64,000 nt of DNA from Gammaproteobacteria bacterium (GCA_018067045.1 JAGPVL010000043.1:1-64000); one strand, 5' to 3'; counted from the first letter of the stretch, positions 4,291 through 47,340 are shown. Numbers and translations are program-made. Notes: generated by a model from the letters alone, not told the origin.

Positions 4291-4369
4291 GATAAATCCT
4301 GTAGGCTTTGGCGACGGCATTATACGGAATTTAGAGGCTGCCTAATAACATCAACACGGGAAATTTAGC

Positions 4370-4906: not shown

Positions 4907-4918
4907 ATCGGAGCTTAT

Positions 4919-5767: not shown

Positions 5768-5806
5768 CACAGATCAGACGAAAAACGGACCCTACCCACG
5801 CTACGC

Positions 5807-6757: not shown

Positions 6758-6846
6758 TGTGTTCTCCTAAAGATTGCCGACGCCCGCCCGAGTGCCTTGC
6801 TCGAAAATCGGGACTGGATAATAGCCGCACATATGCCGAATAATAT

Positions 6847-7512
6847 ATGCCAAGCCCCAAGACCTACGTTATGGGTAGAATGCCAACCATGCAAAGAACA
6901 TTCGATCTTTTTGACTCAAAATCACAACAACCCGCGGACCTAGGCGACGGTGCGTTATTGCAGCAGTGGCACCCTCTTCTGCACGACGCCAGCGACGTGC
7001 TACTCAGCGCACTGATTAATGACATTGCTTGGCAGCAGCCGACCGTGACAGTATTCGGCGCATCTCATCGCATTCCACGTTTGCAGTGCTGGATGGGTGA
7101 CCCGCAAGCATATTACCGCTATTCCGGTCTGCCAATGAAACCAGCCCCATGGCACCCAGAGGTGGCACATCTGAAGAGAATTGTTGAGCTTACTTGCGGG
7201 CATCGATTTAACGCCGTGCTGATCAATTATTATCGGAACGGCTCTGATCATATGGGATGGCATAGCGACGATGAAGCGGAGTTAGGCGCAGCGCCATGGG
7301 TGGCATCCTACAACCTCGGGGAATCACGGGAATTTGCATTGCGGCGCAAAGGTGAATCAAAAACTGCGCTGAAATTTCCGCTGATGCACGACCAGTTAAT
7401 GCTGATGAATCCCGCCGTCCAACACGGCTGGCAGCATAGTGTGCCGATCAGAAAGCGCGCCAACGGCGCGCGAATCAACATGACCTTTCGAGCCATTCAG
7501 CTGGGCGTGTAG
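6847..7512 (+). CDS. AlkB-type 2-oxoglutarate/Fe(II) DNA dealkylase
   Basis: 221 residues if read from 6847. The start at 6889 (MQRTFDLF) looks more like the family N-terminus, so the first 14 residues are doubtful. The jelly-roll core shows the Fe ligands in HMGWHSDDE (H-x-D) and in VQHGWQHSVP (distal His), the 2-oxoglutarate-binding Arg in NGARINMTFR, and the substrate-side block RLQCWMGDPQAYYRYSG seen in the ALKBH2/3-like branch. Family role: oxidative removal of alkyl lesions such as 1-methyladenine and 3-methylcytosine from DNA. It is monocistronic, between corA and the c-di-GMP-related gene. No Ada-type operator was recognised. Confidence 0.88.
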   Translation: MPSPKTYVMGRMPTMQRTFDLFDSKSQQPADLGDGALLQQWHPLLHDASDVLLSALINDIAWQQPTVTVFGASHRIPRLQCWMGDPQAYYRYSGLPMKPAPWHPEVAHLKRIVELTCGHRFNAVLINYYRNGSDHMGWHSDDEAELGAAPWVASYNLGESREFALRRKGESKTALKFPLMHDQLMLMNPAVQHGWQHSVPIRKRANGARINMTFRAIQLGV

Positions 7513-7544
7513 CACGAGCCGCCGCTCCACGTTAAACGCATCAA

Positions 7545-31400: not shown

Positions 31401-32673
31401 TTTGCAGTGCCCTGCCCGAGCGCAGGGCCGCAAACGCAGCGAGGTCTTGCTCAGGAAGCTGAGAAAAGAAAAGTAAACGTACAGAAAAATTTAGCTCGTT
31501 TGCTTCCGGCCACCCATTAAGGGCGTAACCCAAATTAGGCAACTGGCCGGGGTAATTTTCTGGCTGGTTGTTTAGCTCTTTGTCATCCTGATAGACGAGC
31601 TGCAATGGAATTCCTTCTAACCCTTTCGGCACCAACAACTCCGTGAGTAATGCGAACTGGTTTCCTGAGTCAAAAATAATCCAGCTATCGTCCGTACTCA
31701 GCTCCCTCTCCAGCAAACGTAGCTCTTGCACATCAATACGCCCATCGACTTGCGCCATCAACTCGCCCCCAGCCGCCGTTCGAACCTTCGCCCCCAACAA
31801 GTTATTGCCGTCAACGGATACAACGACCTGAGGCGCTTTAACCGACCTCCGATAAAGAGCGGGTATACGTGAATAGGTGTGCGCTTCGAAATGGTTCGGA
31901 TAGCGAATCGCTTGCACGTGCATCTTCATCACCGGCAAACCCGCAAAGACAACGCTTGTTTCAAGATGCATAACAGAACGAATTGGACCGATACGAAAAC
32001 CGCGCCGCCTTGGTTTCAAATTATCATTATCCAAAGTCATGCGAGCGAAGCGAAAAAAAATACCACCGGACATGCGCATTTTTAGGGTATCGATAATAGA
32101 AGCATCTGCTGGACCGGTATATCCTTCGTAACCCAAATGCTCCCAGTTCAACTCGTTCGCAGGGTCTGTTGTGAGAAAGTAATAGGGGGTACGTGTTACC
32201 CCAGTGGCGGGATCATGCTCGATATAACGAGTAGCGCTGCGCTGAGCATTATTCTTAACCAAGTAAAAAAAAGTATCGCTATTATTCGGCGCCGCCACTT
32301 TTATCTCGGCAAGTAACTGACCCGATGCCGGCACAGCTTGCGCTGGCCGCTCGGCACCAGCATCTTCGTACATCATCAAAAGCTGATCCGCACCGTCGAA
32401 TATGCCGGCCTCCCCCTGCCGTTTAAAACCCGAACCATCGAACCAAACCATACCGTGCTCATCAATCTCATCGACTTGGAATGGCACCGGCTCAAAGGTA
32501 TCGTCTCGCCAGCGCATTAACGACAGCTGACCAATCGCCATGTCAGCCGCATCAGGAAGGTCAATGGGCGTTAGCATTAAAGCGGTTTGCGCGGAAGCAG
32601 ACGCGGCGATACAAACCTGAGTACAGGCTAGGAGTGCAAAGAACGAAGTAAGCCAGGCAAAACGTTTAATCAA
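31375..32673 (-). CDS. Exported protein of unknown function at the end of the T2SS operon
   Basis: 432 residues with an N-terminal signal (KRFAWLTSFFALLACTQVCIA); the LLAC stretch could be a lipobox but its -2 residue is atypical. The mature part opens with ALMLTPIDLPDAADMAIGQLSLMRWRDDTFEPVPFQVDEID, followed by beta-rich stretches and no membrane helix. I do not recognise a family. Its start overlaps the gspM stop by 4 bases (ATGA), so it is translationally coupled to the secretion genes and occupies the place where gspN lies in some operons, though it is much longer than GspN (about 250). A role in secretion or as a secreted-protein partner is inferred from position only. Confidence 0.8.
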   Translation of the reverse strand: MIKRFAWLTSFFALLACTQVCIAASASAQTALMLTPIDLPDAADMAIGQLSLMRWRDDTFEPVPFQVDEIDEHGMVWFDGSGFKRQGEAGIFDGADQLLMMYEDAGAERPAQAVPASGQLLAEIKVAAPNNSDTFFYLVKNNAQRSATRYIEHDPATGVTRTPYYFLTTDPANELNWEHLGYEGYTGPADASIIDTLKMRMSGGIFFRFARMTLDNDNLKPRRRGFRIGPIRSVMHLETSVVFAGLPVMKMHVQAIRYPNHFEAHTYSRIPALYRRSVKAPQVVVSVDGNNLLGAKVRTAAGGELMAQVDGRIDVQELRLLERELSTDDSWIIFDSGNQFALLTELLVPKGLEGIPLQLVYQDDKELNNQPENYPGQLPNLGYALNGWPEANELNFSVRLLFFSQLPEQDLAAFAALRSGRALQITSRPVSQ

Positions 32674-33197
32674 GGCTGACGACTCAAACTAGCCCGAAGG
32701 TTTACTCGCCCCTCATCGCTGCCAGGCAGAAACTCCGCACTCACAACATAAATACCGCTCTCCGCAAGCGCTTGCAGCCAACTATAGGCTGCAGAAAAGG
32801 CCTGATTTTCCAATTGAACTCGAACAGAATCGCTTCCCTCAGGATTAAAACTCTTAATCGTTACAGACGATAAGCTCGCAGACCGACTTAACCCAGCGAT
32901 CCAATCGTCTCCTGCCGACGACGTTTTTCCGCCTGACTGCTGACGACTCCTCACCTGTAATTCGTTTAGCTGCATCCACGACAACAGCTTAGTCTGTGAC
33001 TGCCATTGTGCGACTTGATTGTCGCGAACCTGCCACGCAGGCATCCAGACTGCGGAGAAAAGCAGCAAGGCAATCAGCGTCGTGACAAGCAGTTGCAACA
33101 CCAATTTCTCTCTATCTTCGCGCCCCTCATACCAAACCACTGCCGGCTGAACGCTTTTAGTAAAGGCATCACGCCACTGATTAAAAAGTGAATTCAT
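32670..33197 (-). CDS. gspM: Type II secretion inner-membrane protein GspM
   Basis: 175 residues: short cytoplasmic head, one membrane segment (LQLLVTTLIALLLFSAVWMPAW, about residues 33-54), a coiled stretch, then a periplasmic ferredoxin-like domain with SLSSVTIKSFNPEGSDSVRVQ and FSAAYSWLQALAESG. GspM partners GspL in the inner-membrane platform that holds the ATPase GspE. It overlaps both neighbours by 4 bases. Confidence 0.9.
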   Translation of the reverse strand: MNSLFNQWRDAFTKSVQPAVVWYEGREDREKLVLQLLVTTLIALLLFSAVWMPAWQVRDNQVAQWQSQTKLLSWMQLNELQVRSRQQSGGKTSSAGDDWIAGLSRSASLSSVTIKSFNPEGSDSVRVQLENQAFSAAYSWLQALAESGIYVVSAEFLPGSDEGRVNLRASLSRQP

Positions 33198-34339
33198 AAC
33201 GCTCCCACCTTCACACGCGCAGCAACCTGCTCGCCCTGATTACGAAAGTTGGCCACCTCAGCAGCAAGGCCAGCAGCGAGCAGTGTGCCACGCAGCGCTT
33301 CAACTGCTTCGTAGTTCGACGCCTGAAGATCAAGAATCAGTACCCCGTCGCGTTTATCGTATTGAACGCGGCGCGGCTGAACACCGGCTTTTTTATGCTG
33401 TGATAGCGCATCGCCAACCGGCGTCATCAATGCAAAAAAATCCGCACTATTGCCACCACTGCCGCCGAGCTGCGCCAATCGATTCTTAAACTGAGCAGCA
33501 ACTTTCAACGTGGCCTTGTCTCCTGGAAAAAGTGATTCATACAGCGCCGAGGCCTGCGTATTCGCTTGATCAGCAAGATGTGAGTATTGCCACGCCTGCG
33601 CCCACGCCGTTGCCCACACCACTAACAATAACGCTGCAGCAACTTTGCCAAATTGCATCCACGCGGGGGTAATACTTGGCCAACGGGAAACTTCATGTGC
33701 CTGAGGTTTCAGGTCTCCATGCAACAGCTCGATGCGCTGACGCATACTTTGACGCAGGTGAACCCATGTATCACTTTCTGAAATTCGCTCAATATCGGTA
33801 AGATCAATCTTCAGTGCCAGCAGAACGTCTTCAACTTCATCTGTCGGTAAAGACAATACCGCGCCCATGCCCTGAACCAATAAAGATGACTGCCCCGAAT
33901 AGGCAAGCACAGGAGCGGATGAAATAAGTATTTGCCCGTCAACGCCTGCACCAACAATATTGCCGCCCAGATCTTCGATGAAACCTTTCAACTCTCGCAA
34001 CGCCTGAGCATCACATGCAAGCACAGGGTAATGACCATCAACCACCCCGCCAACCGCATACCATAAATCTTCCGGGTCGCCGATGAGGTCCTCCTCTAAT
34101 AAAAACGGCAACACTTTTTGCAGATGTCGTGCTTGCTTGCGAGTCAGCTGCACAGACGTCAGCTGAACATCAGCCGACGACAGTACCAACAGCAATGGCG
34201 CCTCAGAGTGGCTCTCTAGCAAAGCCCGCAACGTTCCAGAGGAGACCTCACCATCAGGCATCTGCCATGTCACCTCGACGCTCGCGGCATCCTGACGCAG
34301 CGCACCGGGTAAAAATCGGACTAATATTGCTTCCGTCAC
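33194..34339 (-). CDS. gspL: Type II secretion protein GspL
   Basis: 381 residues. The N-terminal cytoplasmic actin-like domain (about 1-215) carries LTRKQARHLQKVLPFLLEEDLIGDPEDLWYAVG, the GspL signature. One membrane segment (AAALLLVVWATAWAQAW, near 230-247) and a periplasmic ferredoxin-like domain ending in VQYDKRDGVLILDLQASNYEAVEALRGTLLAAG follow. It anchors GspE to the membrane and binds GspM. Stop and start overlap with gspM; 31 bases separate it from gspK. Confidence 0.92.
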   Translation of the reverse strand: MTEAILVRFLPGALRQDAASVEVTWQMPDGEVSSGTLRALLESHSEAPLLLVLSSADVQLTSVQLTRKQARHLQKVLPFLLEEDLIGDPEDLWYAVGGVVDGHYPVLACDAQALRELKGFIEDLGGNIVGAGVDGQILISSAPVLAYSGQSSLLVQGMGAVLSLPTDEVEDVLLALKIDLTDIERISESDTWVHLRQSMRQRIELLHGDLKPQAHEVSRWPSITPAWMQFGKVAAALLLVVWATAWAQAWQYSHLADQANTQASALYESLFPGDKATLKVAAQFKNRLAQLGGSGGNSADFFALMTPVGDALSQHKKAGVQPRRVQYDKRDGVLILDLQASNYEAVEALRGTLLAAGLAAEVANFRNQGEQVAARVKVGAL

Positions 34340-34370
34340 CTAAATATTCCTTATTTCGTCTGCACTTATT

Positions 34371-35516
34371 CTAATCAGGATTGCAGGCAGGTTCGAGGGG
34401 GCTAAGTACCGGCTGAAGCGCTCTCGCAAACACTTTTGTCTCACCTGAGTCCGGTCGCTTGATCCGTGTTACTAATCGACTCATTCCTGAGTCCGTTGAA
34501 ACATCAATACCAACTTGAAAGTACTCAGTGCCAACGCTCAACAATGCTGCCAGATTGGTTTGCTGTGTCGCATCGACCTTACTAAACTCCGGCAAACTCA
34601 AAACGTCGCTCACCGAGACATAAGGGTCTGTTTGTCGCTGCGCCACCACCGTTTTAGCCGCCGCCTGCGCCCCAACGTCCGCAAAATAGGCCTCGAGCAC
34701 CTTTTCTGGCGCGGTATTCACATTAATTCGCGCAGTGAAAGGCAGCGCGGTAAAGAATTGCCAGAATGCCGTACTTGAGCCACCTGCTGCACTAGTCTGG
34801 GCTGCTCCTTGGGCGCCTTGAGAAAGTAATGCAGCAGACTTCGCCGCCGCTTTAGCGGCCTCTTCTTCAATTGCCGCCGCCAATTCCGCGTCGAAACTTC
34901 GCAGCGCACGCATATCCGACTCATGAGCAATGGGCTGGTTCGGCGTACGACGCAAACGATATTCAGGATCCTCTGCTCCGTCAGCGCCATCTGGCGAGCT
35001 ATTGCTATCAACCCAGTCCGCCATTTCATCGGCCAACTGTGATGCCCGACTGGCATAAGCCGGCGGCAAAACGCTAGCCAGTAAACGCTCCAGACGAATA
35101 ACAGCCTCAGCATCGCGAACAAACGCTCCGTTAGAATCCGCCACCAATGAGTTCAAGTTAAATCGCCCTTGCAGATCCTGCACCGACGCGGCAATCATCG
35201 CATCTTCATAAGGAAAGGCGAACGGACCACTCCAACTCTCTTTCTTGCAATCATCCACTAGCTCATTGTTTTCTTGATCATCTTGCAGGTCATCGATCAG
35301 ACCTTGGATCGCCAGTGTTTCCGCGGCAACTGCGTACTGATAACGATAATCCCAATCAAGCAAATTGGCGGTGCGAGTCTGCACGTGATGCTGCCGATAA
35401 ATCACATCAACCGCGAGCGAAAATGCGAGTGCAAAAATAAGCAACACGACCACCAGAGCAGAGCCCTGCTGTGCTTTATTGACCGCAGCTCTTTTAGGCA
35501 GACGTTTTATATCCAC
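34371..35516 (-). CDS. gspK: Type II secretion minor pseudopilin GspK
   Basis: 381 residues. The leader ends in KAQQGSALVVVLLIFALAFSLAVDVIYRQ, a prepilin-peptidase site with the Glu+5-less form typical of GspK. The long globular domain has QDLQGRFNLNSLV and two SAM-like folds including INVNTAPEKVLEAYF and DVLSLPEFSKVD. It caps the pseudopilus tip with GspI and GspJ. An Ala-rich stretch near 215-245 is unusual in composition. It overlaps gspJ by 10 bases. Confidence 0.92.
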   Translation of the reverse strand: MDIKRLPKRAAVNKAQQGSALVVVLLIFALAFSLAVDVIYRQHHVQTRTANLLDWDYRYQYAVAAETLAIQGLIDDLQDDQENNELVDDCKKESWSGPFAFPYEDAMIAASVQDLQGRFNLNSLVADSNGAFVRDAEAVIRLERLLASVLPPAYASRASQLADEMADWVDSNSSPDGADGAEDPEYRLRRTPNQPIAHESDMRALRSFDAELAAAIEEEAAKAAAKSAALLSQGAQGAAQTSAAGGSSTAFWQFFTALPFTARINVNTAPEKVLEAYFADVGAQAAAKTVVAQRQTDPYVSVSDVLSLPEFSKVDATQQTNLAALLSVGTEYFQVGIDVSTDSGMSRLVTRIKRPDSGETKVFARALQPVLSPLEPACNPD

Positions 35517-36148
35517 GGATTAATCACCGTACGATAGAAGCGGTGAATCACCTCGCCATTCTCCAGAAATACATTCACTTCAATGCTGCTCGGTAACGGC
35601 TGCAGCAAAGGAGGTAAACTCGCTACAGAAGGGTCTGGCCAAACGTCCAGCCATTGGTAATCCCCCGCCGCAGGTTGATACAAAAAGCGCACTTGCAGAT
35701 CTTCAACGCCGTTTAGCAAAACGGTTTCAACTGGCACCGTACCCTGGTTTGGATCAAGTACCGGAAAGTAGCGACGGACAAGCTGGTTGTCGACCACGCG
35801 GTAATCCACTCTCTGTAATTCACTGCGCTGACGTATTCCAAAGGGATTCGCCCAGCCCATACGCGTAAACGAAAAGAATTCAGCATTCCCTATGACTGCT
35901 GGAATATTATCCACTCCTCCGAGAGGATCGCGAACGGGACGCGCAATAATTTGCTCAAGATCCATCGTTAACCACGTCAACATCAACTGCCGCTGTTCCA
36001 TTAAACCAGCAGCTTCTTCCATCTGGTCCCGCTGCGACATTGCCTGACTAAACATTTGCTGTGCGGCGAGAAAGATACCGGCAAAAATGGCGATCGCTAT
36101 CAGTACTTCAAGCAAGGTAAAACCCGCGTTACGACGCAACGATGCCAT
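35507..36148 (-). CDS. gspJ: Type II secretion minor pseudopilin GspJ
   Basis: 213 residues with the prepilin leader RRNAGFTLLEVLIAIAIFAGIFLAAQQMF, including Glu+5 after the processing site. The rest matches GspJ: QRQLMLTWLTMDLEQIIARPVRD, RVDYRVVDNQLVRRYFPVLD and a C-terminal FYRTV. It forms the pseudopilus tip with GspI and GspK. It shares one base with the end of gspI. Confidence 0.93.
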   Translation of the reverse strand: MASLRRNAGFTLLEVLIAIAIFAGIFLAAQQMFSQAMSQRDQMEEAAGLMEQRQLMLTWLTMDLEQIIARPVRDPLGGVDNIPAVIGNAEFFSFTRMGWANPFGIRQRSELQRVDYRVVDNQLVRRYFPVLDPNQGTVPVETVLLNGVEDLQVRFLYQPAAGDYQWLDVWPDPSVASLPPLLQPLPSSIEVNVFLENGEVIHRFYRTVINPWI

Positions 36149-36633
36149 TACGGATCACCTCCGCTATAACCCTGCGCGTTACCCGCTGACGAAGCTCCAG
36201 ATCCAGATCCGGTGCCGGTGCCGGTGCCGGTGCCGGTAAATGGCAGGCCGATAAGGCTGCCTTGGCTATAGGTAATATAAAAGTCGGCACCGTTTTCTGG
36301 CTCTGGCCCAACTTCAATATCAACGCGGCGCGTATCTGGATAGGGACCGCTACTGATACGCGTGCGAATTCGCCACTCGATACCGTCGACCTCACGCTTA
36401 TCGTCTTGTGTACCGACACTTGGCCATTGTTGGTACACCTGCATTTCAACAAGCTTATCGCTCGCCAGTAGCCATGCTTCGGTCCGTTCCTGCATGCGTG
36501 AAAAACCCATCGCACTACTGCCAAACGCGTTCGCCAAAACAACCGCAGCCAGTGACAGGACCACCACCGCAACAAGCACTTCAACCAGCGTAAATCCCGC
36601 GTTCTTACCCCTCATATGGCTCCTCGTCATCAT
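36148..36633 (-). CDS. gspI: Type II secretion minor pseudopilin GspI
   Basis: 161 residues from 36633, or 155 from the ATG at 36615 (MRGKNAGFTLVEV). Prepilin leader GKNAGFTLVEVLVAVVVLSLAAVVLANAF, then WLLASDKLVEMQVYQQWPSVG and VDGIEWRIRTRI, as usual in GspI. The C-terminal tail is odd: Gly-Thr repeats followed by Gly-Ser, encoded by a six-base tandem repeat at 36211-36237, extend it beyond the normal family end. Tip component with GspJ and GspK. Confidence 0.92.
   Translation of the reverse strand: MMTRSHMRGKNAGFTLVEVLVAVVVLSLAAVVLANAFGSSAMGFSRMQERTEAWLLASDKLVEMQVYQQWPSVGTQDDKREVDGIEWRIRTRISSGPYPDTRRVDIEVGPEPENGADFYITYSQGSLIGLPFTGTGTGTGTGSGSGASSAGNAQGYSGGDP
36211..36237. repeat. Six-base tandem repeat (GGTGCC) in gspI
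   Basis: GGTGCC is repeated four times plus GGT. Just before it GATCCA-like units are repeated more loosely. Being a multiple of three, copy-number change would alter the GspI tail by two residues per unit without a frameshift. Confidence 0.85.
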
Positions 36634-37285
36634 CCGATTCGATAACGACTCGCCCCACGGGGTCTACGACAACACGCAACTCACGACTTGCCTCACTGTC
36701 ACGTAGCAGTACGGTGATTGGCGTTGATTCGCCACTTGGGAAAAAATACATCTGCGGTGGTTGTAACTTCCCTTGCTTGGCCTTGGCATCAGTATTGTCA
36801 CCGACACGGGTATCTTCCGCGATCAACGCGTCAGCAACATAAGCCAACGTTTTCTCGCCCGTAGATTGGTCTTCTAATAACTGCCATTCGAGGAGGTATT
36901 GCTCGGGAATGTCGTAAGCAACAAGTGCATCATCCGTTATGATATCGACGAACTTTCGCTCATCTACGCTGTAACCTAATGGCTGATACCCGTTTGCTGA
37001 AAGTCTTAACGCGAGTAACTGACCTCGAAACAAACTGTTTTCGGCCAGCATTTGAACAGTATTGCGGAGCCGCTCTGCTTGATAATCGAGATCTTCACCA
37101 CTCGAATCACGGCCCATCATTGGTAGCGTCATGGACGCAAAAAGTGCCAGCAGCGTCACCACTACTAGCACTTCAAGAAGCGTAAACCCCGACGTGTGCG
37201 AAGGTTTTTTCGCGGTACGTCTAGGCGCGGAACTCGTCGCGAACTTAATCGCGGAAGTTGAGGTCTGCATCAAAATCTTCGCCAC
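36605..37285 (-). CDS. gspH: Type II secretion pseudopilin GspH
   Basis: 226 residues from 37285; an internal ATG at 37270 is equally possible. The leader is long (about 33 residues) before HTSGFTLLEVLVVVTLLALFASMTLPMMG. The globular domain shows RLRNTVQMLAENSLFRGQLLALRLSANGYQPLGY and a late strand ELRVVVDPVGRVVIES. It overlaps both gspG and gspI. Minor pseudopilin between the tip and the GspG shaft. Confidence 0.9.
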   Translation of the reverse strand: MAKILMQTSTSAIKFATSSAPRRTAKKPSHTSGFTLLEVLVVVTLLALFASMTLPMMGRDSSGEDLDYQAERLRNTVQMLAENSLFRGQLLALRLSANGYQPLGYSVDERKFVDIITDDALVAYDIPEQYLLEWQLLEDQSTGEKTLAYVADALIAEDTRVGDNTDAKAKQGKLQPPQMYFFPSGESTPITVLLRDSEASRELRVVVDPVGRVVIESDDDEEPYEG

Positions 37286-37676
37286 CCTCTACGCCATCCG
37301 CGCCGAGTGTATAGAGGTCATAGGGCTTACCGTCGATGCCAGGGCTGATATAAACATACTCATTGCCCCATGGATCTTCTGGCAACTTTGATAGGTAGCC
37401 GTTTGGATTCCAGTTCTTTGCACCATCAGGCTTATCAATTAGCGCCGAAAGCCCCTGCTCCGTCGTTGGGTACTTTTTATTATCGAGTTTATAAAAGTCC
37501 AGCGCGTTTGCCACACCACTCATATTAGCTCTAGCAAGGTCTACTTTTGCTTTATCGCCCTGACCAATAACATTAGGAACAATAAAGGCCGCTAACAAAC
37601 CAAGAATTGTCACAACAACCATAATTTCTAACAGGGTAAAACCGCTCTGGCGCCCCACTTTATTCATTCGTTTCAT
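37245..37676 (-). CDS. gspG: Type II secretion major pseudopilin GspG
   Basis: 143 residues, the normal length. Leader RQSGFTLLEIMVVVTILGLLAAFIVPNVIG; the C-terminal half has ALDFYKLDNKKYPTTEQGLSALI, GYLSKLPEDPWGNEYVYISPG and the calcium-site region LGADGVEGGEDFDADL. It polymerises into the pseudopilus. It overlaps the start of gspH by 41 bases in another frame. Confidence 0.96.
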   Translation of the reverse strand: MKRMNKVGRQSGFTLLEIMVVVTILGLLAAFIVPNVIGQGDKAKVDLARANMSGVANALDFYKLDNKKYPTTEQGLSALIDKPDGAKNWNPNGYLSKLPEDPWGNEYVYISPGIDGKPYDLYTLGADGVEGGEDFDADLNFRD

Positions 37677-37747
37677 TATTATTCCCTTACCTAATTCGAG
37701 TGCTTAATTACGCGCCTTTACGATGACCCGCTTATGCGATGACTCGC

Positions 37748-38974
37748 TTATCGACTAAAAATGGCGTTCATATCGAGCATTGGCATAACCACGGCGAGCA
37801 CCACCATCACGACAATACCTGCCATTAACAACAACATCAGCGGCCCTAACAGCCCAACCATTGTTGTGACCGTATTATTGAGGTCCCGTTCCTGATAATC
37901 CGCAGCCCGCGTTAGCATTTGGTCGAGATCACCACTGGCCTCACCGCTGGCAATCATCTGTACCAACATTGGCGGAAAATAACCGCTTGTATCCAGCGCT
38001 TTACTCAAACTTCCGCCTTCTCGAACGCGGCTTGCAGCATGCCTGAGGGCTTCACGAATTGCCAGATTGGCGATCACCTGCTCCGAAATCCCCAGCGCTT
38101 CCACCAACGGCACACCACTACGCCCTAAAATACCCAACGTACTGGCCAGTCTTGCGCTCTCGCCCGCACGTAACAGCGTACCAACCATCGGCATCGAAGC
38201 CAGCCGCGCATGCACACGTAATTTGAACGCAGGCTCGCGCATCGCCCGACTAAAGCCAACAACGGCAATCACGCTAACAAGCGCTACTAGCCAAATCCAA
38301 TTTTGGAAAAACTCACTGACCGAAATCATGATACGGGTTAGCAAAGGTAGCGTCTGACCGCGTCCCTCAAATACCGCCACCATTTTCGGCACGACGTAAG
38401 TCATCAGGAAGGTAATCACTAACCCTGAAAAAACAATAATAAAAATAGGATAAACCATCGCTTGAGTAATCGAGCGACCCGTATCGTTTCGTGTCTCTAA
38501 GTACTCAGCCATTTGATCGAGCACTTGCTCCAAATGACCACTCGACTCCCCAGCCGCTACCGTCGCTTGATACATCTCCGGAAACGCGCGCGGAAACTCA
38601 CCGAGGCTACGGGCCAAACTATGGCCTTCAAGTACTTTAGCTCGTACAGCCAGCAGAATTCTTTCAACTCTGTCCTTACCCGCCTGCCTCGCTACTGCAG
38701 AAAGGGCATGCTCAATCGGCAAACCGGAACGAATGAGCGTGGCCAGCTGACGGGTAATAAGTGCCTGCTCTGCTCCGCTGAGTTTGCCACGCGAAGACAT
38801 CCCCGCCATAACAGAAGAGCCCGCGCCTTTCTTGTCGTCGGACTCATCAACTTCGAGCGGCACCCAACCTTTTTCACGCAGTTGCTGCCGAACCAGACGC
38901 GCACTATCGGCCTCAAGCACGCCTTTGCGTACCTTACCTTTGTGATCTAGAGACCGATATTCAAAAGCGGGCAT
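37748..38974 (-). CDS. gspF: Type II secretion inner-membrane platform protein GspF
   Basis: 408 residues with the two repeated GspF domains (each with a helical cytoplasmic part and membrane segments): ALITRQLATLIRSGLPIEHALSAVARQ, MAEYLETRNDTGRSITQAMVYPIFI, then ARLASTLGILGRSGVPLVEALGISEQV and LVQMIASGEASGDLDQML, ending with LMLLLMAGIVVMVVLAVVMPML. It couples the ATPase GspE to pseudopilus assembly. 71 bases from gspG, 36 bases after gspE. Confidence 0.96.
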   Translation of the reverse strand: MPAFEYRSLDHKGKVRKGVLEADSARLVRQQLREKGWVPLEVDESDDKKGAGSSVMAGMSSRGKLSGAEQALITRQLATLIRSGLPIEHALSAVARQAGKDRVERILLAVRAKVLEGHSLARSLGEFPRAFPEMYQATVAAGESSGHLEQVLDQMAEYLETRNDTGRSITQAMVYPIFIIVFSGLVITFLMTYVVPKMVAVFEGRGQTLPLLTRIMISVSEFFQNWIWLVALVSVIAVVGFSRAMREPAFKLRVHARLASMPMVGTLLRAGESARLASTLGILGRSGVPLVEALGISEQVIANLAIREALRHAASRVREGGSLSKALDTSGYFPPMLVQMIASGEASGDLDQMLTRAADYQERDLNNTVTTMVGLLGPLMLLLMAGIVVMVVLAVVMPMLDMNAIFSR

Positions 38975-39010
38975 GACTTGTTGCGCCTTAATTAAACGTA
39001 ATTTACTGCG

Positions 39011-40567
39011 TTATGAATTTTCTCGAGTTACGCGAAGTACTTCTTCAATACTCGTTTCGCCAGCCAACACTTTGCGCCAACCGTCAGTACGAATGCTTGC
39101 TGTCTTCAGGCGTGCTTCTCTCTCCAGAGTCTGCTCCGAAGCGCGATCATGAATCAGCTCTCTCATTGACTCACTAACAACGACCAACTCGTAGATACCG
39201 GTACGGCCACGATAACCATGCGCATTACATGCAGAGCAACCCACCGGGCGGTAAATCACCGCATCATCAGTGAGCCCCATCAGATCCTTTTCACTGTCTG
39301 TAGCAGGATGTCCTTCTTTACAGTCACTGCAAAGAACTCGCACGAGACGCTGCGCGAGCACTCCAAGCAAGCTCGACGATAGCAGGAAAGGCTCAATACC
39401 CATATCCTGCAAACGTGTTACGGCGCCAACCGCGCTATTAGTATGAAGTGTTGATAGAACTAAGTGGCCCGTCAGAGATGCTTGCACCGCAATCTCCGCT
39501 GTTTCCAGATCGCGAATTTCACCAACCATGACAACGTCGGGATCCTGGCGCAAGATTGCGCGCAAACCACGCGCAAAGGTCATCTCGACCTTGGTATTCA
39601 CTTGAGTTTGACCAATGCCTTCGAGTTGATATTCGATAGGATCTTCAACGGTAAGAATATTCCGAGAAGAGTCATTCAGGTCAGTGAGTGACGCATATAG
39701 CGTCGTGGTTTTACCGGAGCCCGTTGGGCCCGTCACCAAAATAATACCGTGAGGTTTATGGATCAGCTCAAGCATCAGTTTATGCTCAACATCCCCCATG
39801 CCTAAGCTCGACAGCTGTAACCGCCCCGCTTGCTTATCGAGTAACCGCAGTACAACGCGTTCACCGTTGCTTGACGGCATAGTCGATACCCGAACATCGA
39901 CATCTCGACCAGCTAGACGCAATGAAATACGGCCATCTTGCGGAACCCGCTTCTCCGCAATATCCAAACGCGCCATGACTTTAATACGAGACACCAACAA
40001 CGGCGCCAACTCACGCCTCGGCGTGAGCACTTTGCGTAACACGCCATCTACGCGCAGTCTGACCACCAAACTACGCTCAAACGTTTCAATATGAATATCG
40101 GAAGCATCTTCACGAATGGCTTCCTGTAACAGTGCATTAATCAAACGAATAATCGGGGCGTCATCCTCTTGCTCAAGCAAGTCCGATGTTTCAGGCATTG
40201 CGTCAGCAAGGCTGCTCAAGTCAATGCCATCTAGATTGTCTGCCGCTGCAGAAGCCGCACCACGCTGCTGCTCATAGGCGGCAGCTAAGGCAACATCAAA
40301 CTCCTCAGCGGATAATTCGATGGGTGCACCAGCGACGGAGTAATTACGTCTAACCTCCGCCAGTACCTGCAAAGAAAGCGGCGCGCGAAAGCACAGCTGC
40401 GTACTCTGCGCCTCAGAACCAGCATTACGCCGAAGCAACACTCCATGCCTCCGAGCAAAGCCATACGGCAACAAATCAGGTGGAACATTCTCGGGTAGAA
40501 CATTATAGGGTTCTGCCAGAAATTCTTGCCCGGTAGCGCCAGTTGCGTCCATTGCGACCACCTCCAT
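39011..40567 (-). CDS. gspE: Type II secretion ATPase GspE
   Basis: 518 residues. N1E-like domain (1-150), then the ATPase: [23 protein letters not shown], Walker [16 protein letters not shown], the Asp box [18 protein letters not shown], Walker [13 protein letters not shown], a His box, and the tetracysteine zinc loop (CSDCKEG and [11 protein letters not shown]). It powers pseudopilus extension from the cytoplasm. It starts 2 bases after the PilZ response-regulator gene, so the secretion genes appear to be the downstream part of the sensory operon. No gspC or gspD lies upstream. Confidence 0.96.
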
Positions 40568-40569
40568 GA

Positions 40570-41712
40570 TCAGTACTTCTCGAGTAATGCTTTAATAATA
40601 TTTTGATTCGTATCGCTTAGCCCCACGAACTGAAAGCCGGCGTGATACTCATCCGTGCCTTCCTGTTCCCGAGTCCATACATTACGCGCATTAAAGCTTA
40701 ACGTGTTGACACCATATATTTGCTCTGGCAAGACAACGCTTAACTGAAATTGCTTACCACCCTCAAGGTCTTGGCGAGTAAACAGCTTAAAACCATCAAT
40801 GCTAATATTTAAAAGGCGGCCTATATTGGTGCCCGTTTCGCGATCAAAAAGAACCATCTCTTTAAACATCTTCTTACGCGAATAACGACGACCTTCTCGA
40901 GCCAACTGTTCGGCTGAAGATTCATGCTGGTCCGTGACGTCACGAACAACCATAACAACCCCAGAGAAAGGCTCTCCAGGTAAATTAAGAGGATTCGCCG
41001 TAACAGAAACCGACTTAACGTCGCCGCTGCCATGGACAAACATTGACTGATTACTACGCCATGCCCGACCAGAACTGGCTGTCGATACAAGGGGCGACTC
41101 TGCAAATGCCCACCTTAATGTCTGCTCCTCATCACGAAACAGTAGATTATCGATGGGCTTTCCGACCAACGCTTCTCTCTCCTGATCAAACAAGAAGCCC
41201 GCCGCATCATTGCTAAACGTAATAACACCTTTACCGTCGGTGCCAATCACGCAGTCACCCATCGCTCGTAACAGGCGCTCATTCTCATCCTTCAGACGCT
41301 TCATTTGGATCACAGCAAGCTGCAATTTGCGACGCTGCATATCCATCTCTAGAAAAAGCTCAACCTTTGTCGTAATAATCTTCTGGTCTATCGGCTTAAA
41401 CAAATAATCAACAGCACCACAGTCATAGCCCTTAAACACATACTTACTTTCACTGGAAAGGGCCGTAACGAAAATAATGGGAACGTTGCGCGTCTTTCGA
41501 CTATTGCGCATCAGTGTCGCGACTTCAAAGCCATCCATCTCAGGCATCTGCACATCCAGAAGCACCAAGGCAAAGTCATACTTCATGGCTAGCTGAAGTG
41601 CCTCATTGCCACTAGACGCCATAACCAAATTACGACGCGGATCTTCAAGGATTGCTTCGAGCGCGATAAGATTCTCTCGATGATCATCAACAATTAAAAT
41701 ATTTTGTTTCAT
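40570..41712 (-). CDS. Response regulator with REC, PAS and PilZ domains
   Basis: 380 residues. REC domain (1-120): acidic pair in [10 protein letters not shown], phospho-acceptor Asp in [14 protein letters not shown], Lys in YLFKPID. PAS domain (about 145-255): [21 protein letters not shown] and [12 protein letters not shown]-terminal PilZ (about 275-378): R-x-x-x-R in RRYSRKK and the intact N-x-S-x-x-G in NISIDG, so it should bind cyclic di-GMP. The final line of the protein resembles PilZ ends ([13 protein letters not shown]). Start overlaps the cheB-like stop by 4 bases and its stop lies 2 bases before gspE. Confidence 0.92.
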
Positions 41713-42299
41713 TGCTCAAGCTGCCCGAATACCTGATCGCTAATAAATGACGCGATCTCTGCTAACGGCAAAACCTCGTCCACCCCACCTGCATCAATAG
41801 CCGATTGCGGCATAATAGGTGACTCAGAATCAGCTGGATCCTGCGCTACCGTCATGCCTCCACGCTGTTTGATATACTGCATGCCGGCCGCACCGTCTTC
41901 ATTGGCCCCCGTTAAAAGAACTGCCATTACCCCCCTCCCGTATATATGTCCTGCCGAGAAAAATAACTCATCAATTGCCGGCCGGCAGTAATGAACCGGT
42001 CGATACAGCGCCAATGCTAAAGAGCCGCCCTTCTCCACCAAACAGTGGTATCCCGGCGGTGCGACGAATAAGCCCCCCGGCTCAAGCTCCGCACCATGCT
42101 CTGGCGCCACGACTTTCAATGAGGTCTTACTAACAAACAAGTTAGCCAATCTATTGCGCTCTGCTGCACGCTGATGCTGCACCAAAACGATAGGGACAGG
42201 AAAGTTATTCGGCAACGCCGAGAATATCCGCGTCGCGGCGTCTATCCCTCCCCAAGACGCACCCACCACCACAATCTTAAAGCGTAGCGGCCGGCTCAT
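41709..42299 (-). CDS. CheB-type methylesterase domain protein without receiver
   Basis: 196 residues consisting only of the CheB catalytic domain: Ser in VVVGASWGGIDA, His in VLVQHQRAAERN, Asp in LTGANEDGAAGM, and the substrate-side block IYGRGVMAVL. No N-terminal receiver, so it is not itself phosphorylated; the stand-alone receiver encoded next to it could supply that function. In chemotaxis, CheB removes methyl groups from receptor glutamates. Here there is no MCP, CheA or CheW gene nearby, so the hybrid kinase coiled coil is a candidate target. 8 bases from the receiver gene. Confidence 0.92.
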   Translation of the reverse strand: MSRPLRFKIVVVGASWGGIDAATRIFSALPNNFPVPIVLVQHQRAAERNRLANLFVSKTSLKVVAPEHGAELEPGGLFVAPPGYHCLVEKGGSLALALYRPVHYCRPAIDELFFSAGHIYGRGVMAVLLTGANEDGAAGMQYIKQRGGMTVAQDPADSESPIMPQSAIDAGGVDEVLPLAEIASFISDQVFGQLEQ

Positions 42300-42307
42300 C
42301 GTATCAC

Positions 42308-42784
42308 CTACTTCTTATCTTTATGTTTTGCCGCCTCGTAGGCCGCTCTATGCGCCTGGGCCTGCTTTAGTTTTAGTTGTAACTCCCGCCGCTGGCGATC
42401 CAGCTGCAGAAAGAAATTCACTTTCGACTGCAATATTACCGGATCAAGCGGCTTAAACAGATAATCCACTGCGCCAACTTGATAGCCGCGAAAGACATAC
42501 TGCTTCTCTTTGCTGATCGCGGTAACGAAAATAATAGGAATGGTCTGTGTATCTTTTCGTTGGCGCATTAGCTCGGCCATCTCAAAACCGTCCATGCCGG
42601 GCATCTGTACATCCAGCAGTACCAAAGAGATGTCTTCCTTCAGCAAGACTTTTAGACCTTCCGAACCAGAGTTTGCTTTGATTAAAACTCGATCCTCATC
42701 ATCAAGAATCGCTTCAAGCGAAACCAAGTTCGCTGGCTGATCATCTACCAAGAGCAACTTCTGGATAATTTTCTCTTCTGTCAC
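42308..42784 (-). CDS. Single-domain response regulator
   Basis: 158 residues: one receiver domain (LLLVDDQPANLVSLEAIL, acceptor Asp in [16 protein letters not shown], Lys in YLFKPLDP) plus a basic, helical tail rich in Gln, Lys and Ala. No output domain. The receiver resembles the N-terminus of the REC-PAS-PilZ protein closely ([31 protein letters not shown]), suggesting duplication. Likely a phosphate sink or a switch for CheB/CheR or the kinase. Start overlaps cheR by 4 bases. Confidence 0.92.
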   Translation of the reverse strand: MTEEKIIQKLLLVDDQPANLVSLEAILDDEDRVLIKANSGSEGLKVLLKEDISLVLLDVQMPGMDGFEMAELMRQRKDTQTIPIIFVTAISKEKQYVFRGYQVGAVDYLFKPLDPVILQSKVNFFLQLDRQRRELQLKLKQAQAHRAAYEAAKHKDKK

Positions 42785-43638
42785 AATTTTACCTGCTTAC
42801 GTCTATATATCTTCATCTCGGCATCCACTGGCTCAAAACCATGGTCCGGATTAGAGAACTTCAAACTCTCCTTAGTACCTAGACATAGAAAGCCGCCAAG
42901 GTCGAGACTGTCCCTAAATAGTTGAAACACGCGCTGCTGCAGCTGAAGATCAAAGTAAATCAATACGTTTCGGCAGACGATAACATTCATCTCCCCAAAA
43001 ACCTGGTCCGTCGCAAGGTCATGATCCGCAAACACAATGTTGCGCTTAAGCCGCTGATCCATGATTACGCTTTCGTATTTACAGGTATAGTAATCCGATA
43101 ACGAGCCTCGCCCGCCCGCTTGGTGATAATTGTCGCTATATTGCTTAATCGCGGCGATCGAGTATATGCCCTTCTTCGCAGTTGCCAGAACGTTCTTATC
43201 AATATCTGTGGCGTACATCATGGTTCGTTCGTACAGCCCTTCTTCTTCGAGAAGCACTGCCATGCTGTAAATCTCTTCGCCGGTAGAGCAGCCCGCATGC
43301 CATACCTTAATGAAAGGAAACGTCTTGAGTACCGGAACAACCTCCTCCCGAAAACGCCGGTAAAACATCGGGTCGCGATACATCTCTGTCACGTTTACTG
43401 TCAAATCGTTCAATAATTCAACAAAGAATGGACGATCACGCAACACGCGAGCAGTCATATCCATAATCGAGTCAGCGCCACAAGCGCTCATGCGGTGCAG
43501 AATACGCCGCCGAATGGACGCCTTGCTATAACTACGAAAGTCATAGCCGTACATAGAATAAATCGCCTCAAGCAGAAGACGAATTTCAATCTCCTCAAGG
43601 CTCACATCGTCGTCAGTTATCTCAATCTCAGATGACAT
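42781..43638 (-). CDS. CheR-type protein-glutamate methyltransferase
   Basis: 285 residues: helical N-domain (LEEIEIRLLLEAIYSMYGYDFRSYS, RRRILHRMSACG) and an S-adenosylmethionine-binding domain with WHAGCSTGEEIYSMAVLLEE, ATDIDKNVLATA and the catalytic-region block NVIVCRNVLIYFD. It transfers methyl groups to glutamates of a signalling protein. In this cluster it follows the hybrid kinase by 18 bases and is coupled to the single receiver by a 4-base overlap. Confidence 0.94.
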   Translation of the reverse strand: MSSEIEITDDDVSLEEIEIRLLLEAIYSMYGYDFRSYSKASIRRRILHRMSACGADSIMDMTARVLRDRPFFVELLNDLTVNVTEMYRDPMFYRRFREEVVPVLKTFPFIKVWHAGCSTGEEIYSMAVLLEEEGLYERTMMYATDIDKNVLATAKKGIYSIAAIKQYSDNYHQAGGRGSLSDYYTCKYESVIMDQRLKRNIVFADHDLATDQVFGEMNVIVCRNVLIYFDLQLQQRVFQLFRDSLDLGGFLCLGTKESLKFSNPDHGFEPVDAEMKIYRRKQVKL

Positions 43639-43656
43639 CGTTGCGCTCCATAAAAC

Positions 43657-46600
43657 TTACTTGTGAAGCCAAATGCGCATTAGAGATGTCAACTTACTCA
43701 TATCGATCGGCTTCGAGCAATAATCATTGGCACCCGCCTCAATACATTTTGACCGGTCGTCTTTCATGGCCTTCGCCGTGAGAGCGAGTATCGGCAACTT
43801 CTGGAAGCGGCTTTGCTCGCGAATTTTAGCCATTGCCTCGTAACCATCCATTTCCGGCATCATGATATCCATCAGTACGATATCGATATCCGGATTCTCA
43901 TCAAGAAGATCCAGCGCTTCACGGCCATTGTTCGCAATCGTAATGTTAAAACTTAACTCTTCAAGCTGGGCAGACAGCGCGTAGATGTTGCGCATATCAT
44001 CATCAACCAACAGCAGCGACTTGCCTTCGAAAACATCATCACGATGCTCAATGGCATCCTTCGCCGCGGCGCTATGGCTTGGCATTGTCGTTTCTAGCCA
44101 ATGCAAAAACAGTGAGGCTTCATTCAGCAAGCGTTCGGATGAGCGCTCTGTTTTAAGAATAATTCTGTCGGCATACTTTCTCAGCTGCGCCTCTTCATCG
44201 CGACTCAGCTCTTTGCCGGTATAGATGATCACCGGAACAGAATTGTACTCTTTGTTTCCGTTCAGAATCTCTAACAACTCAAACCCGGTCATATCCGGCA
44301 GCGTTAAATCCAAGATCATGCAGTCAAAGACTTGTGTATCGAGTGCTGAAATCGCTTCGGCGCCGGTATGCACGGATGTGATTTCTACACCCTTCTGATC
44401 AAACAATTCACGAATGCTTTCATGTTGTATTTCGCTGTCTTCGACCACCAGCATACGACGCACATTCTTTTCAATCGCCTTTTCAATCTTGGCAAATGCA
44501 TCTGCCATCTGCTCGGTGTTAACCGGCTTGGTTAAGAAGTCAATCGCGCCAAGCGACAGGGCCTTTTGACGCTCATCCTTGCCAGAAAGAAAATGTACCG
44601 GAATATCTTTAGTTCTCGGATCCGCCTTTAGACTGTCCATTACCGCCCAGCCATCCATGCCTGGCAGACCAATGTCGAGAATAATTGCGCTTGGACGATA
44701 CGCCCGGGCATATTCAAGGCCCGATTCGCCGTCTTCACAGACATGCCCTTCAAGTCCGTAGTCCGCCGACAACTCCTGCAGCACTCCGGCAAAACCGGCA
44801 TCATCCTCAATAATCAAAACGGCCTTTTCACGTACCACAAAGCCGTCTTCAGGCGCCGCCCCAGCTTGTGTCGAAACAGAGGCCAGCGTCTGCTCTAATG
44901 ATGCTTGACCAAAAGGTGCGCCAGCCGGAGATTGATCGTCTTGATAAACCTGATCAGCACTGCCAATCGGCAGGAACAACATAAACGAGGAACCTTGGCC
45001 TGCGCCGTCACTGGCGATACCAATGTCACCGCCAAGCAGCCGCGATAATTCCCGAGAGATCGTCAAGCCAAGCCCTGTTCCACCGTATTTACGACTGGTT
45101 GTACCATCGGCCTGCTGGAATGCTTCAAATATAAGCTTCTGCTTATCCTCCGCAATACCAATGCCTGTATCAATAACGGAAAGGCGCATCGTTTGCCCCG
45201 CCAACAAATTACGATTGGGCATCTCATCCGCAGTTGGCATATCGAAACGCAGTGTTACGCCGCCGTTTTCGGTAAACTTCATCGCGTTTGAAAGCAAATT
45301 CTTAATGATCTGCTCCATCCGCTGACGGTCTGTAAAGAGTCGCGGCGGTAGATTTTCGCCCAGCTCTACTTTGAAGTAGAGGCCGCTGTTTTCAGCGATA
45401 TGCGCAAAATGCTTCCTAAAGTGGTCCGCTAACTCATTCATCTCGAGGTCATCAATGATGACATCCATCTTGCCTTCTTCAATTTTCGAGATGTCGAGAA
45501 TGTCATTAATCAGCGATAGTAAGTCTGATCCCGCTCCATGAATAACCTGCGCATGCTCTATCTGCTTGTCGTTCAAATTACCTTTCTTATTCTGACTCAG
45601 AGCATTGGACAAAATAAGAATACTATTGAGAGGCGTGCGTAATTCATGGGACATCGTAGAAAGAAACTCGGACTTATACTTAGACGATAGCTCAAGCTCG
45701 CGAATTTTCTCTTCCAAATCACCTTTAAGAATTTCGAGTTCTTTATTCTTTTGCGAGACATCTGATTTTTGCTGTGCCAACACGTTGGCCTGCGCCTCAA
45801 GTTCTTCATTGGTTACTCGAAGTTCTTCTTGCTGAGCCTGAAGACTTTCCTCAGATGCGCGCAAAGCTTGCGCCTGAGCTTCAAGTTCCTCATTAATCGC
45901 CCGCAATTCTTCCTGTTGCTGCTGAAGCCGAGACTCAGACGCAGCAAGTTCCATCGCCTGCTCTTCTAGATCTTCATTGACGGTGCTCAATTCCTGCTTT
46001 TGCGCTACTAACGCATCCGCTTGCTGCTGCGTCTGCGCGAGCATCGTAGCGAGCTTCACCCTACTCTCTGACGTATGCACCGCGATCGCTACTGCATGCA
46101 CGCCCTCTTCAAGCATGGCCAAGTCGTCAGATTCGAAGTCGCGAAACGCACCTATTTCGAGAACACCCTTTAACTCATCCTCATGAACAATTGGCGTAAC
46201 GACAATATTGCGCGGCACTGCGGAGCCCGTTGCAGAGGAAATGACAACGTAATCTTCTGGCACACGCTCTAATAGAATTTGCTTTTGCTCCATGGCGCAC
46301 TGGCCAACCAATGACTCGCCAAGCGAAAATTCATTAGCAATATTGCGGCGACGCTGCATCGCATAAGAGCTATTTAAAACAAGCTTCTGCGTTTCCGAGT
46401 TATAAACATAAAATGCGCCAACTTGCGCATCTAAGGCTGGCACCAAATGGGTCAGCATATTGTTGCCAAGCTGCTGCAAACTCATATCACCGCGCATACG
46501 ATCATTAAGCTCAGCGATGCGACTTTTCTTTCGCTCTTCACGTTGATCTTCGTCACGACGAGATTTAAGCGCATCACGCATTTGTCGAATAGCGCGCAAC

Positions 46601-47340
46601 AATCGTCCTGTCTCATCACGGGACGTTACTTCGATATCGCGATCCCAATCGCCATCGGCTATATTGCCCGCGACAGTCACGGCATAACTCAACGGTCGAA
46701 CAATACTGCGAGTAACGCGCAAAGTAATGAACGCGAGCAGAAGGATCGCAAGTGAAACAACCCCTAAGCCGATAAATCGCGTTTGAATCGTGCTTTCGCG
46801 AGTGCCACTTAAATGATCATAAAACGTTTCATAGCGTGCATCTTGGAAGTCTTCCTGCATGCGCTCAAACTGATCGCGTAGCTGCGAGACATTCGCTAAA
46901 CCATCATAAAACTGATCTTCCGAAAGCTTGCCCGCCATTTGCGCACTGGCAAACTCTTGCCCCGCATCAAAGTAAGCTTCAAACGCATGCGTTAGCGCCT
47001 GGACGTCTTCCTCAAGCTCAGGATCAACTGTCACCATCGCTTCCATGTTCTGGACCGACTGCGCCGCAAGCCTAACCGCATCACTCAACGCTTCTTGGTC
47101 AGCGGACGTCATGGCTCTAACCAGCGCATCCCGTGCAGAAAAAAGCGCAATATTATTTTGCGACGCGGCTTCGAGCAGCACGAAGTCCTTTTGCTCAATT
47201 TGCACAAGGTCAGCAATGCTCGACTCGGCAACGACGTAGCTATATAGGAAATAGACTAGAAACGACCCAATACCCAAGCCAGCGACGCACAGAATTTTTA
47301 CGCGAACGGACAAGTCTCCGAACCAGTTCATCAGCTTCAC
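43657..47340 (-). CDS. Hybrid sensor histidine kinase with GAF, long coiled coil and three receivers
   Basis: 1227 residues. TM1 (about 13-36), periplasmic four-helix sensor (37-187), TM2 (189-208), HAMP (210-265), GAF (290-425), coiled coil (430-552) with repeated QQEELRxxNEELEAQA units, HisKA with phospho-His565 in STMSHELRTPLN, HATPase with NLLSNAMKFTENG and GTGLGLTISREL, then three receivers opening with VLIIEDDAG, RMLVVEDSE and SLLLVDDDMRN. The last receiver has LMDIMMPEMDG and the Lys in CSKPID. It senses an unknown periplasmic or GAF-bound signal and probably phosphorylates the two downstream regulators. First gene of the sensory-T2SS operon; M1 or M4 may be the start. Confidence 0.93.
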   Translation of the reverse strand: MKLMNWFGDLSVRVKILCVAGLGIGSFLVYFLYSYVVAESSIADLVQIEQKDFVLLEAASQNNIALFSARDALVRAMTSADQEALSDAVRLAAQSVQNMEAMVTVDPELEEDVQALTHAFEAYFDAGQEFASAQMAGKLSEDQFYDGLANVSQLRDQFERMQEDFQDARYETFYDHLSGTRESTIQTRFIGLGVVSLAILLLAFITLRVTRSIVRPLSYAVTVAGNIADGDWDRDIEVTSRDETGRLLRAIRQMRDALKSRRDEDQREERKKSRIAELNDRMRGDMSLQQLGNNMLTHLVPALDAQVGAFYVYNSETQKLVLNSSYAMQRRRNIANEFSLGESLVGQCAMEQKQILLERVPEDYVVISSATGSAVPRNIVVTPIVHEDELKGVLEIGAFRDFESDDLAMLEEGVHAVAIAVHTSESRVKLATMLAQTQQQADALVAQKQELSTVNEDLEEQAMELAASESRLQQQQEELRAINEELEAQAQALRASEESLQAQQEELRVTNEELEAQANVLAQQKSDVSQKNKELEILKGDLEEKIRELELSSKYKSEFLSTMSHELRTPLNSILILSNALSQNKKGNLNDKQIEHAQVIHGAGSDLLSLINDILDISKIEEGKMDVIIDDLEMNELADHFRKHFAHIAENSGLYFKVELGENLPPRLFTDRQRMEQIIKNLLSNAMKFTENGGVTLRFDMPTADEMPNRNLLAGQTMRLSVIDTGIGIAEDKQKLIFEAFQQADGTTSRKYGGTGLGLTISRELSRLLGGDIGIASDGAGQGSSFMLFLPIGSADQVYQDDQSPAGAPFGQASLEQTLASVSTQAGAAPEDGFVVREKAVLIIEDDAGFAGVLQELSADYGLEGHVCEDGESGLEYARAYRPSAIILDIGLPGMDGWAVMDSLKADPRTKDIPVHFLSGKDERQKALSLGAIDFLTKPVNTEQMADAFAKIEKAIEKNVRRMLVVEDSEIQHESIRELFDQKGVEITSVHTGAEAISALDTQVFDCMILDLTLPDMTGFELLEILNGNKEYNSVPVIIYTGKELSRDEEAQLRKYADRIILKTERSSERLLNEASLFLHWLETTMPSHSAAAKDAIEHRDDVFEGKSLLLVDDDMRNIYALSAQLEELSFNITIANNGREALDLLDENPDIDIVLMDIMMPEMDGYEAMAKIREQSRFQKLPILALTAKAMKDDRSKCIEAGANDYCSKPIDMSKLTSLMRIWLHK

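Follow-up and report, generated by a model that had tools for sequence, protein, structure and literature searches.

The closest described relative of the locus studied here is the Cfc cluster of Pseudomonas putida KT2440. In the available sections of the paper on this cluster, the kinase PP_3761 (CfcA) is encoded by the first gene of the five-gene cluster cfcABCDE, cfcB and cfcC code for a CheR and a CheB that have been excluded from chemotaxis, and the diguanylate cyclase CfcR depends on the conserved histidine of CfcA for its activity; we found no statement in those sections on the substrate of CfcB/CfcC (PMC4951495). P. putida CheR1 was considered as a candidate for the Cfc enzyme and dropped, because cheR1 has been placed in the wsp-like cluster (PMC6363813). 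In Wsp and other chemosensory pathways with alternative cellular functions, CheR and CheB also tune a sensor that sets cyclic di-GMP (c-di-GMP). Wsp, however, consists of a methyl-accepting chemotaxis protein (MCP), CheW and a CheA-type kinase. Here we describe a signalling module in which sensor, coiled coil and kinase lie in one protein without MCP, CheA or CheW. The module occupies positions 40570-47340 (minus strand) of a 64,000-nucleotide stretch from a Gammaproteobacteria bacterium (GCA_018067045.1 JAGPVL010000043.1:1-64000; the whole stretch is called the window below). Comparison across genomes points to the coiled coil of this kinase as the likely target region of CheR and CheB.

Comparison of the window module with Cfc

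The module comprises five complete genes, in transcription order a hybrid histidine kinase, CheR, a lone receiver (REC), a CheB without a receiver, and a REC-PAS-PilZ regulator. An earlier note on this DNA, made from the sequence alone, had claimed these genes and domains, and all were recovered where it placed them as open reading frames with Pfam matches. The note had also called them a coupled run ending at 40570. The spacing is indeed tight (18 bp between the kinase gene and cheR, a 4-bp overlap of cheR with the REC gene, 8 bp between the REC gene and cheB, and a 4-bp overlap of cheB with the REC-PAS-PilZ gene), but the end was wrong, as gspE starts 2 bp further on.

As in Cfc, a GAF hybrid kinase with several receivers comes first, cheR and cheB follow, receiver proteins come after, and the predicted role is non-chemotactic with a c-di-GMP output. 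The module differs from Cfc in the lone REC between cheR and cheB and in its last gene, which encodes REC-PAS-PilZ and after which type II secretion genes follow in the same run. Pfam gave no match to CHASE3 in the window kinase at an E value of 0.001; the E value for this domain in the kinase of G264, a Pseudomonas-like genome, was 5.7e-35. G264 and a second such genome, G229, encode CHASE3-GAF-coil-HisKA-HATPase-RECx3 followed by cheR, cheB and REC-HisKA-HATPase. Kinases of Pseudomonas-like genomes are 42-43% identical to the window kinase over about 960 residues, and the window coil is one 28-residue unit longer than those of G264 and G229 (128 versus 100 residues). Because the window kinase has no CHASE3 match, we filed the module as a Cfc variant rather than as a Cfc system proper. 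We conclude that the module is a Cfc-type variant, of a kind already known from P. putida.

Linkage of CheR to the kinase across genomes

Both enzymes appear intact. CheR retains the motifs CSTGEE, TDID and CRNVLIYF, and its catalytic residues align with those of solved enzymes; Ser15, His42 and Asp135 of CheB align with the catalytic residues of solved CheBs (3sft and 1chd). In an order-wide survey of 294 genomes with an adjacency threshold of 5 kb, 64 of the 68 CheRs of the module subfamily lay within this distance of a homologous kinase match, and we therefore conclude that the linkage of kinase and CheR is not a chance arrangement. Conversely, coil sites were located with a degenerate pattern for QEEL[R/K/Q]xxNEEL, and 76 of 77 had a CheR of this subfamily within 5 kb, where chance predicts about 0.002 per site. 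Nor do homologous kinases usually occur without these enzymes, which the earlier note had seen as the case against its proposal: an adjacent cheR was present for 64 of 77 close homologues. Whether the coil is always accompanied by cheR, as the note had also wondered, depends on the scope: this holds within the order (76 of 77 sites) and fails class-wide. The coil was accordingly rejected as a strict marker of cheR. A separate CheR scan returned 19 loci, ranging from Alcanivoracaceae to delta-proteobacteria, Myxococcota and a Clostridium relative (the distant ones being L020-L026), and the kinase gene directly preceded cheR in every one that extended far enough.

Two rearranged loci bear on the partnership. 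In L077, one open frame of 1795 residues (4166-9550, plus strand) encodes CheB-CheR-HAMPx3-GAF-coil-HisKA-HATPase-RECx3, so that CheB and CheR are joined to the same kinase architecture whose parts are all separate proteins in the window. Such a fusion strongly indicates that CheB and CheR act with this kinase. Other CheR matches in the order sit in frames of 850-1800 residues. In L073 (8223-11126, minus strand), HisKA and HATPase have been lost and HAMP-GAF-coil-RECx3, cheR, cheB and a REC-containing regulator have been kept. Retention of the coil without HisKA-HATPase suggests a use beyond relaying a signal into HisKA, and the coil probably serves more than this relay; the L073 product is possibly a non-kinase methyl-accepting scaffold.

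Two further features of these loci were recorded. A second, separate cheR follows the L077 fusion gene, at 9499-10449, and the kinases of L191 (1163-6583) and L129 (2-5275) are poly-HAMP proteins with seven to nine tandem HAMP domains.

Glutamate pairs in the coil

The coiled coil that the earlier note had described between GAF and HisKA is present, and is better described as a series of 28-residue (four-heptad) repeats. In nearly all kinases the linker measured 30, 44, 58, 65, 72, 79, 86, 93, 100, 107 or 128 residues, all equal to 2 modulo 7, so that it changes by whole heptads and frequently by 28 residues. We compared eight kinases from three families, and found that units 1 and 2 had 17 of 28 (61%) and 20 of 28 (71%) invariant columns, respectively; the corresponding figures were 72% for HisKA, 35 of 133 (26%) for GAF and 6 of 28 (21%) for the coil next to HisKA. 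Such strong conservation at exposed coil positions is, in our judgement, unusual for a plain spacer. Pairs of adjacent glutamates (EE pairs) immediately precede the core leucines, with a spacing of 7 residues inside each unit and of 28 residues from one unit to the next, which gives EE477-478, EE484-485, EE505-506 and EE512-513 as candidate methylation sites. An AlphaFold2 monomer of residues 200-640 had long helices flanking a low-confidence break between units 1 and 2; its predicted template modelling score (pTM) was 0.45, and it was not used as support.

For a comparison of kinases with and without cheR, we drew GAF-coil-HisKA kinases from the order, from one of its families (f7) and from the class, with the coil omitted from the class query to limit bias. 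Adjacency was judged on the retrieved stretches, and the 127 distinct kinases divided into 98 with and 29 without an adjacent cheR. Kinases with cheR had a mean of 6.2 EE pairs and a mean linker of 102 residues, compared with 2.7 and 79 for those without, which tend toward fewer coil repeats or EE pairs. Independent contrasts on a HisKA-HATPase tree, approximate for a yes/no trait, supported the association for EE pairs (r = 0.42, p = 7e-7) and for linker length (p = 2e-5). EE density in the distal coil was associated with cheR (p = 3e-5), and as an internal control the 44 residues next to HisKA had no such association (p = 0.73). Ten of 13 independent clade pairs differed in the predicted direction (Wilcoxon test on the differences, p = 0.004), as did all five clade pairs of equal coil length. 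Two of these equal-length comparisons are the clearest: L105, with cheR, has 7 distal EE pairs and its sister L080, with no adjacent cheR, has 0, and the f7 kinases have 5.9 EE pairs versus 3 in G101 and G225, two genomes without any CheR. In three other genomes (G019, G135 and G601), additional CheRs could serve unlinked kinases. We conclude that the EE pairs and repeat units of the coil co-vary with cheR.

Several observations weigh against methylation of the coil as the explanation. A plain sign test on the 13 clade pairs gave p = 0.09, and glutamate and glutamine counted jointly differed little between the groups. L081 and L165 have many EE pairs despite having no adjacent cheR, L191 comes from a CheR-less genome and yet has a 100-residue coil with 4 EE pairs, and the coil is short in L129 and L170 although cheR is present. 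The MCP consensus [ASTG][ASTG]xx[EQ][EQ]xx[ASTG][ASTG] had no match in the window kinase and one in the PilJ-type MCP of the same genome, and a methylation site of the strict MCP type in the kinase was accordingly rejected. Receivers have also been lost in several cheR-less kinases, so general simplification may account for part of the trend. P. putida strains mutated in the remaining cfc genes retain the crinkle phenotype, according to unpublished results that the authors mention (PMC4951495). Given the exceptions, the missing strict consensus, the similar joint counts and the lost receivers, we take co-variation as the result and methylation as what we infer from it. The idea of a kinase tuned by reversible methylation, put forward in the earlier note, thus gains from the tie of CheR/CheB to the kinase and from the co-variation, and falls short on the MCP consensus.

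We propose that the periplasmic domain and GAF would sense a signal, that HisKA/HATPase would autophosphorylate, and that phosphate would pass to the internal receivers, the lone REC and REC-PAS-PilZ. CheR would methylate the glutamate pairs of the coil and CheB would demethylate or deamidate them, and this modification may reset the gain of the kinase as MCP methylation resets CheA. REC-PAS-PilZ would combine phosphorylation with c-di-GMP and would probably control secretion or surface behaviour. CheR and CheB very probably act on the kinase complex. That they tune the kinase, with coil methylation included, we put at a probability of roughly 0.55, and methylation of the coil is slightly favoured as the best single mechanism. 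The odds appear evenly balanced for the broadest form of the proposal, in which methyl-accepting histidine kinases would be a widespread hybrid-kinase family whose gain is reset by CheR/CheB at heptad-spaced EE pairs in a modular 28-residue coil, a covalent adaptation outside chemoreceptor arrays that feeds c-di-GMP signalling.

Orphan CheR/CheB pairs beside kinases have already been named and excluded from chemotaxis, with their substrate not stated in the literature searched; the comparison here indicates a particular substrate region and individual residues open to testing, and so offers a testable answer on the role of these pairs. Methylation-based sensory adaptation has hitherto been known from chemoreceptors and, if the proposal is true, would extend to the kinase itself, making receptor-style adaptation a portable module used by ordinary two-component kinases to set c-di-GMP. 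We found no earlier report of a CheR-methylated histidine kinase in the open-access literature, which is weak evidence of absence, since subscription papers lay mostly outside the search.

The coil could instead be a mere signalling helix, with CheR and CheB modifying other sites (periplasmic helices, HAMP, receivers or a partner) or acting by binding, and with the EE pattern reflecting docking or general constraint. This would agree with the lack of a canonical methylation consensus in the coil and with the exceptions to the EE/cheR rule, and units 1 and 2, whose exposed positions are conserved almost to the level of HisKA, would suit a docking surface too. We nevertheless regard it as unlikely, because the association is restricted to the distal coil and absent from the HisKA-proximal coil, L080 and G101/G225 have lost EE pairs without a change in coil length, and L073 retains the coil without the kinase core. 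A less probable explanation is common descent, in which one lineage has both the long coil and cheR, and the cheR-less kinases are decaying or distant. Phylogenetic clustering is strong, parsimony gives just about 13 changes of cheR state, and several cheR-less kinases also lack receivers. Against this, the contrasts (p = 7e-7) and the 13 clade pairs (p = 0.004) were still significant, and the HisKA-proximal coil had no trend.

We also considered chemoreceptors as targets. The source genome (3.3 Mb, 96% complete, Alcanivoracaceae as judged by its relatives) encodes one MCP-domain protein, two CheRs, two CheBs and three CheW-domain proteins. All chemosensory genes except the CheR and CheB of the module lie on contig C31, in a Pil-Chp-like order of two receivers, CheW, the MCP (696 residues), CheR (302 residues), a 2313-residue CheW/REC protein, CheB (347 residues) and CheW. 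The earlier note had reported no chemoreceptor, CheA or CheW; Pfam found none among the window genes, but genome-wide the claim does not hold, given the MCP and CheW domains on C31. Its separation of the module from flagellar chemotaxis stands, in view of the conserved operon linkage, the CheB-CheR/kinase fusions, and the CheR and CheB beside the sole MCP. Flagellar chemotaxis was ruled out as the CheR/CheB target because no flagellin and no second MCP were found in the source genome. Since the sole MCP, of PilJ type, sits beside its own CheR and CheB, the enzymes of the module are left without a free chemoreceptor in this genome, although an overlooked MCP is possible in an assembly that is 96% complete. 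Cross-talk, with the CheR and CheB of the module as spare enzymes for the PilJ-type receptor of Pil-Chp, would fit its being the only MCP and is very improbable, because that receptor adjoins its own pair and the CheR of the module is just 30% identical to the C31 CheR over the aligned part and tracks the kinase across classes.

Output, the lone receiver and neighbouring genes

The PilZ motifs RxxxR and [DN]xSxxG are intact in the window protein and in 13 of 13 PilZ-bearing orthologues tested. The position of REC-PAS-PilZ is taken in sister operons by REC-PAS-GGDEF-EAL (L075) or REC-PAS-GGDEF (L074), and L070 carries both REC-PAS-PilZ and REC-PAS-GGDEF-EAL. From these c-di-GMP domains and the intact PilZ motifs, we assign the module to c-di-GMP signalling, like its P. 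putida counterpart. In P. aeruginosa, the PilZ protein MapZ inhibits methylation by CheR1 with c-di-GMP (PMC6370697), and c-di-GMP feedback on the CheR of the module is possible by analogy. Both cases pair a PilZ protein with a CheR; in the window the PilZ domain is joined to REC-PAS, and an action on CheR is a suggestion. The window encodes a further c-di-GMP protein, a PilZ-DUF1631-GGDEF-EAL protein of 1321 residues (7545-11510, minus strand).

The signalling genes are followed by a gsp operon (32670-40567, minus strand) that runs from gspE, F and G onward to K, L and M, with GspK, L and M assigned by Pfam. The junction with gspE was kept in the Alcanivoracaceae loci checked, and gspE/F/G lie downstream in L009-L018 and also in L070 and L071, members of two neighbouring families. 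We saw this link with type II secretion in Alcanivoracaceae and neighbouring families only, and as a guess it could match secretion to surface life. A 432-residue frame without a Pfam match (31375-32673, minus strand) ends the operon and is a putative gspN by position. The earlier note had missed three things: the precedent in Cfc, the c-di-GMP output and the link with type II secretion.

That note had read the lone REC as the detached receiver of a split CheB. By Pfam, the window CheB does lack the N-terminal receiver of canonical CheB, but CheB frames are about 200 residues in most homologous loci as well, and a receiver-less CheB also occurs, with no lone receiver, in relatives from other families and classes. 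We therefore dropped the split-CheB reading. We saw a lone REC separating cheR from cheB in Alcanivoracaceae and two neighbouring families only. From this distribution, the receiver-less CheB is the general state across homologous loci, and the lone REC was probably added later in those families.

Table 1. Features of the module and the adjoining gene in the window
Feature	Position	Strand	Basis
Hybrid histidine kinase, 1227 residues: transmembrane segment, periplasmic helical domain, transmembrane segment, HAMP, GAF, coil, HisKA, HATPase, three REC	43657..47340	-	Pfam, open reading frame
HAMP, residues 209-259	46564..46716	-	Pfam 1.6e-12
GAF, residues 286-422	46075..46485	-	Pfam 5e-16
Coiled coil between GAF and HisKA, residues ~430-552, 28-residue repeats	45685..46053	-	Sequence; homologue linkers vary by whole heptads
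Coil units 1 and 2, residues 468-523, SESRLQQQQEELRAINEELEAQAQALRA / SEESLQAQQEELRVTNEELEAQANVLAQ	45772..45939	-	Conservation; EE pairs co-vary with cheR
HisKA, residues 556-623, SHELRTPL phospho-acceptor box	45472..45675	-	Pfam 2.5e-16
HATPase_c, residues 671-792	44965..45330	-	Pfam 3.6e-24
Three receiver domains of the kinase	43666..44823	-	Pfam Response_reg, 3 stretches, E 8.9e-68
CheR methyltransferase, 285 residues	42781..43638	-	Pfam 5.2e-40; best PDB match 5ftw 1.7e-34
Lone receiver domain, 158 residues	42308..42784	-	Pfam 1.2e-25
Receiver-less CheB methylesterase, 196 residues	41709..42299	-	Pfam CheB_methylest 3e-53; PDB alignments 3sft, 1chd
REC-PAS-PilZ response regulator, RxxxR and NxSxxG motifs	40570..41712	-	Pfam; motif check
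gspE, type II secretion ATPase	39011..40567	-	Open reading frame; 2 bp downstream of signalling genes

On the 5' side, the module is bordered by three tRNA genes, pgsA and uvrC.

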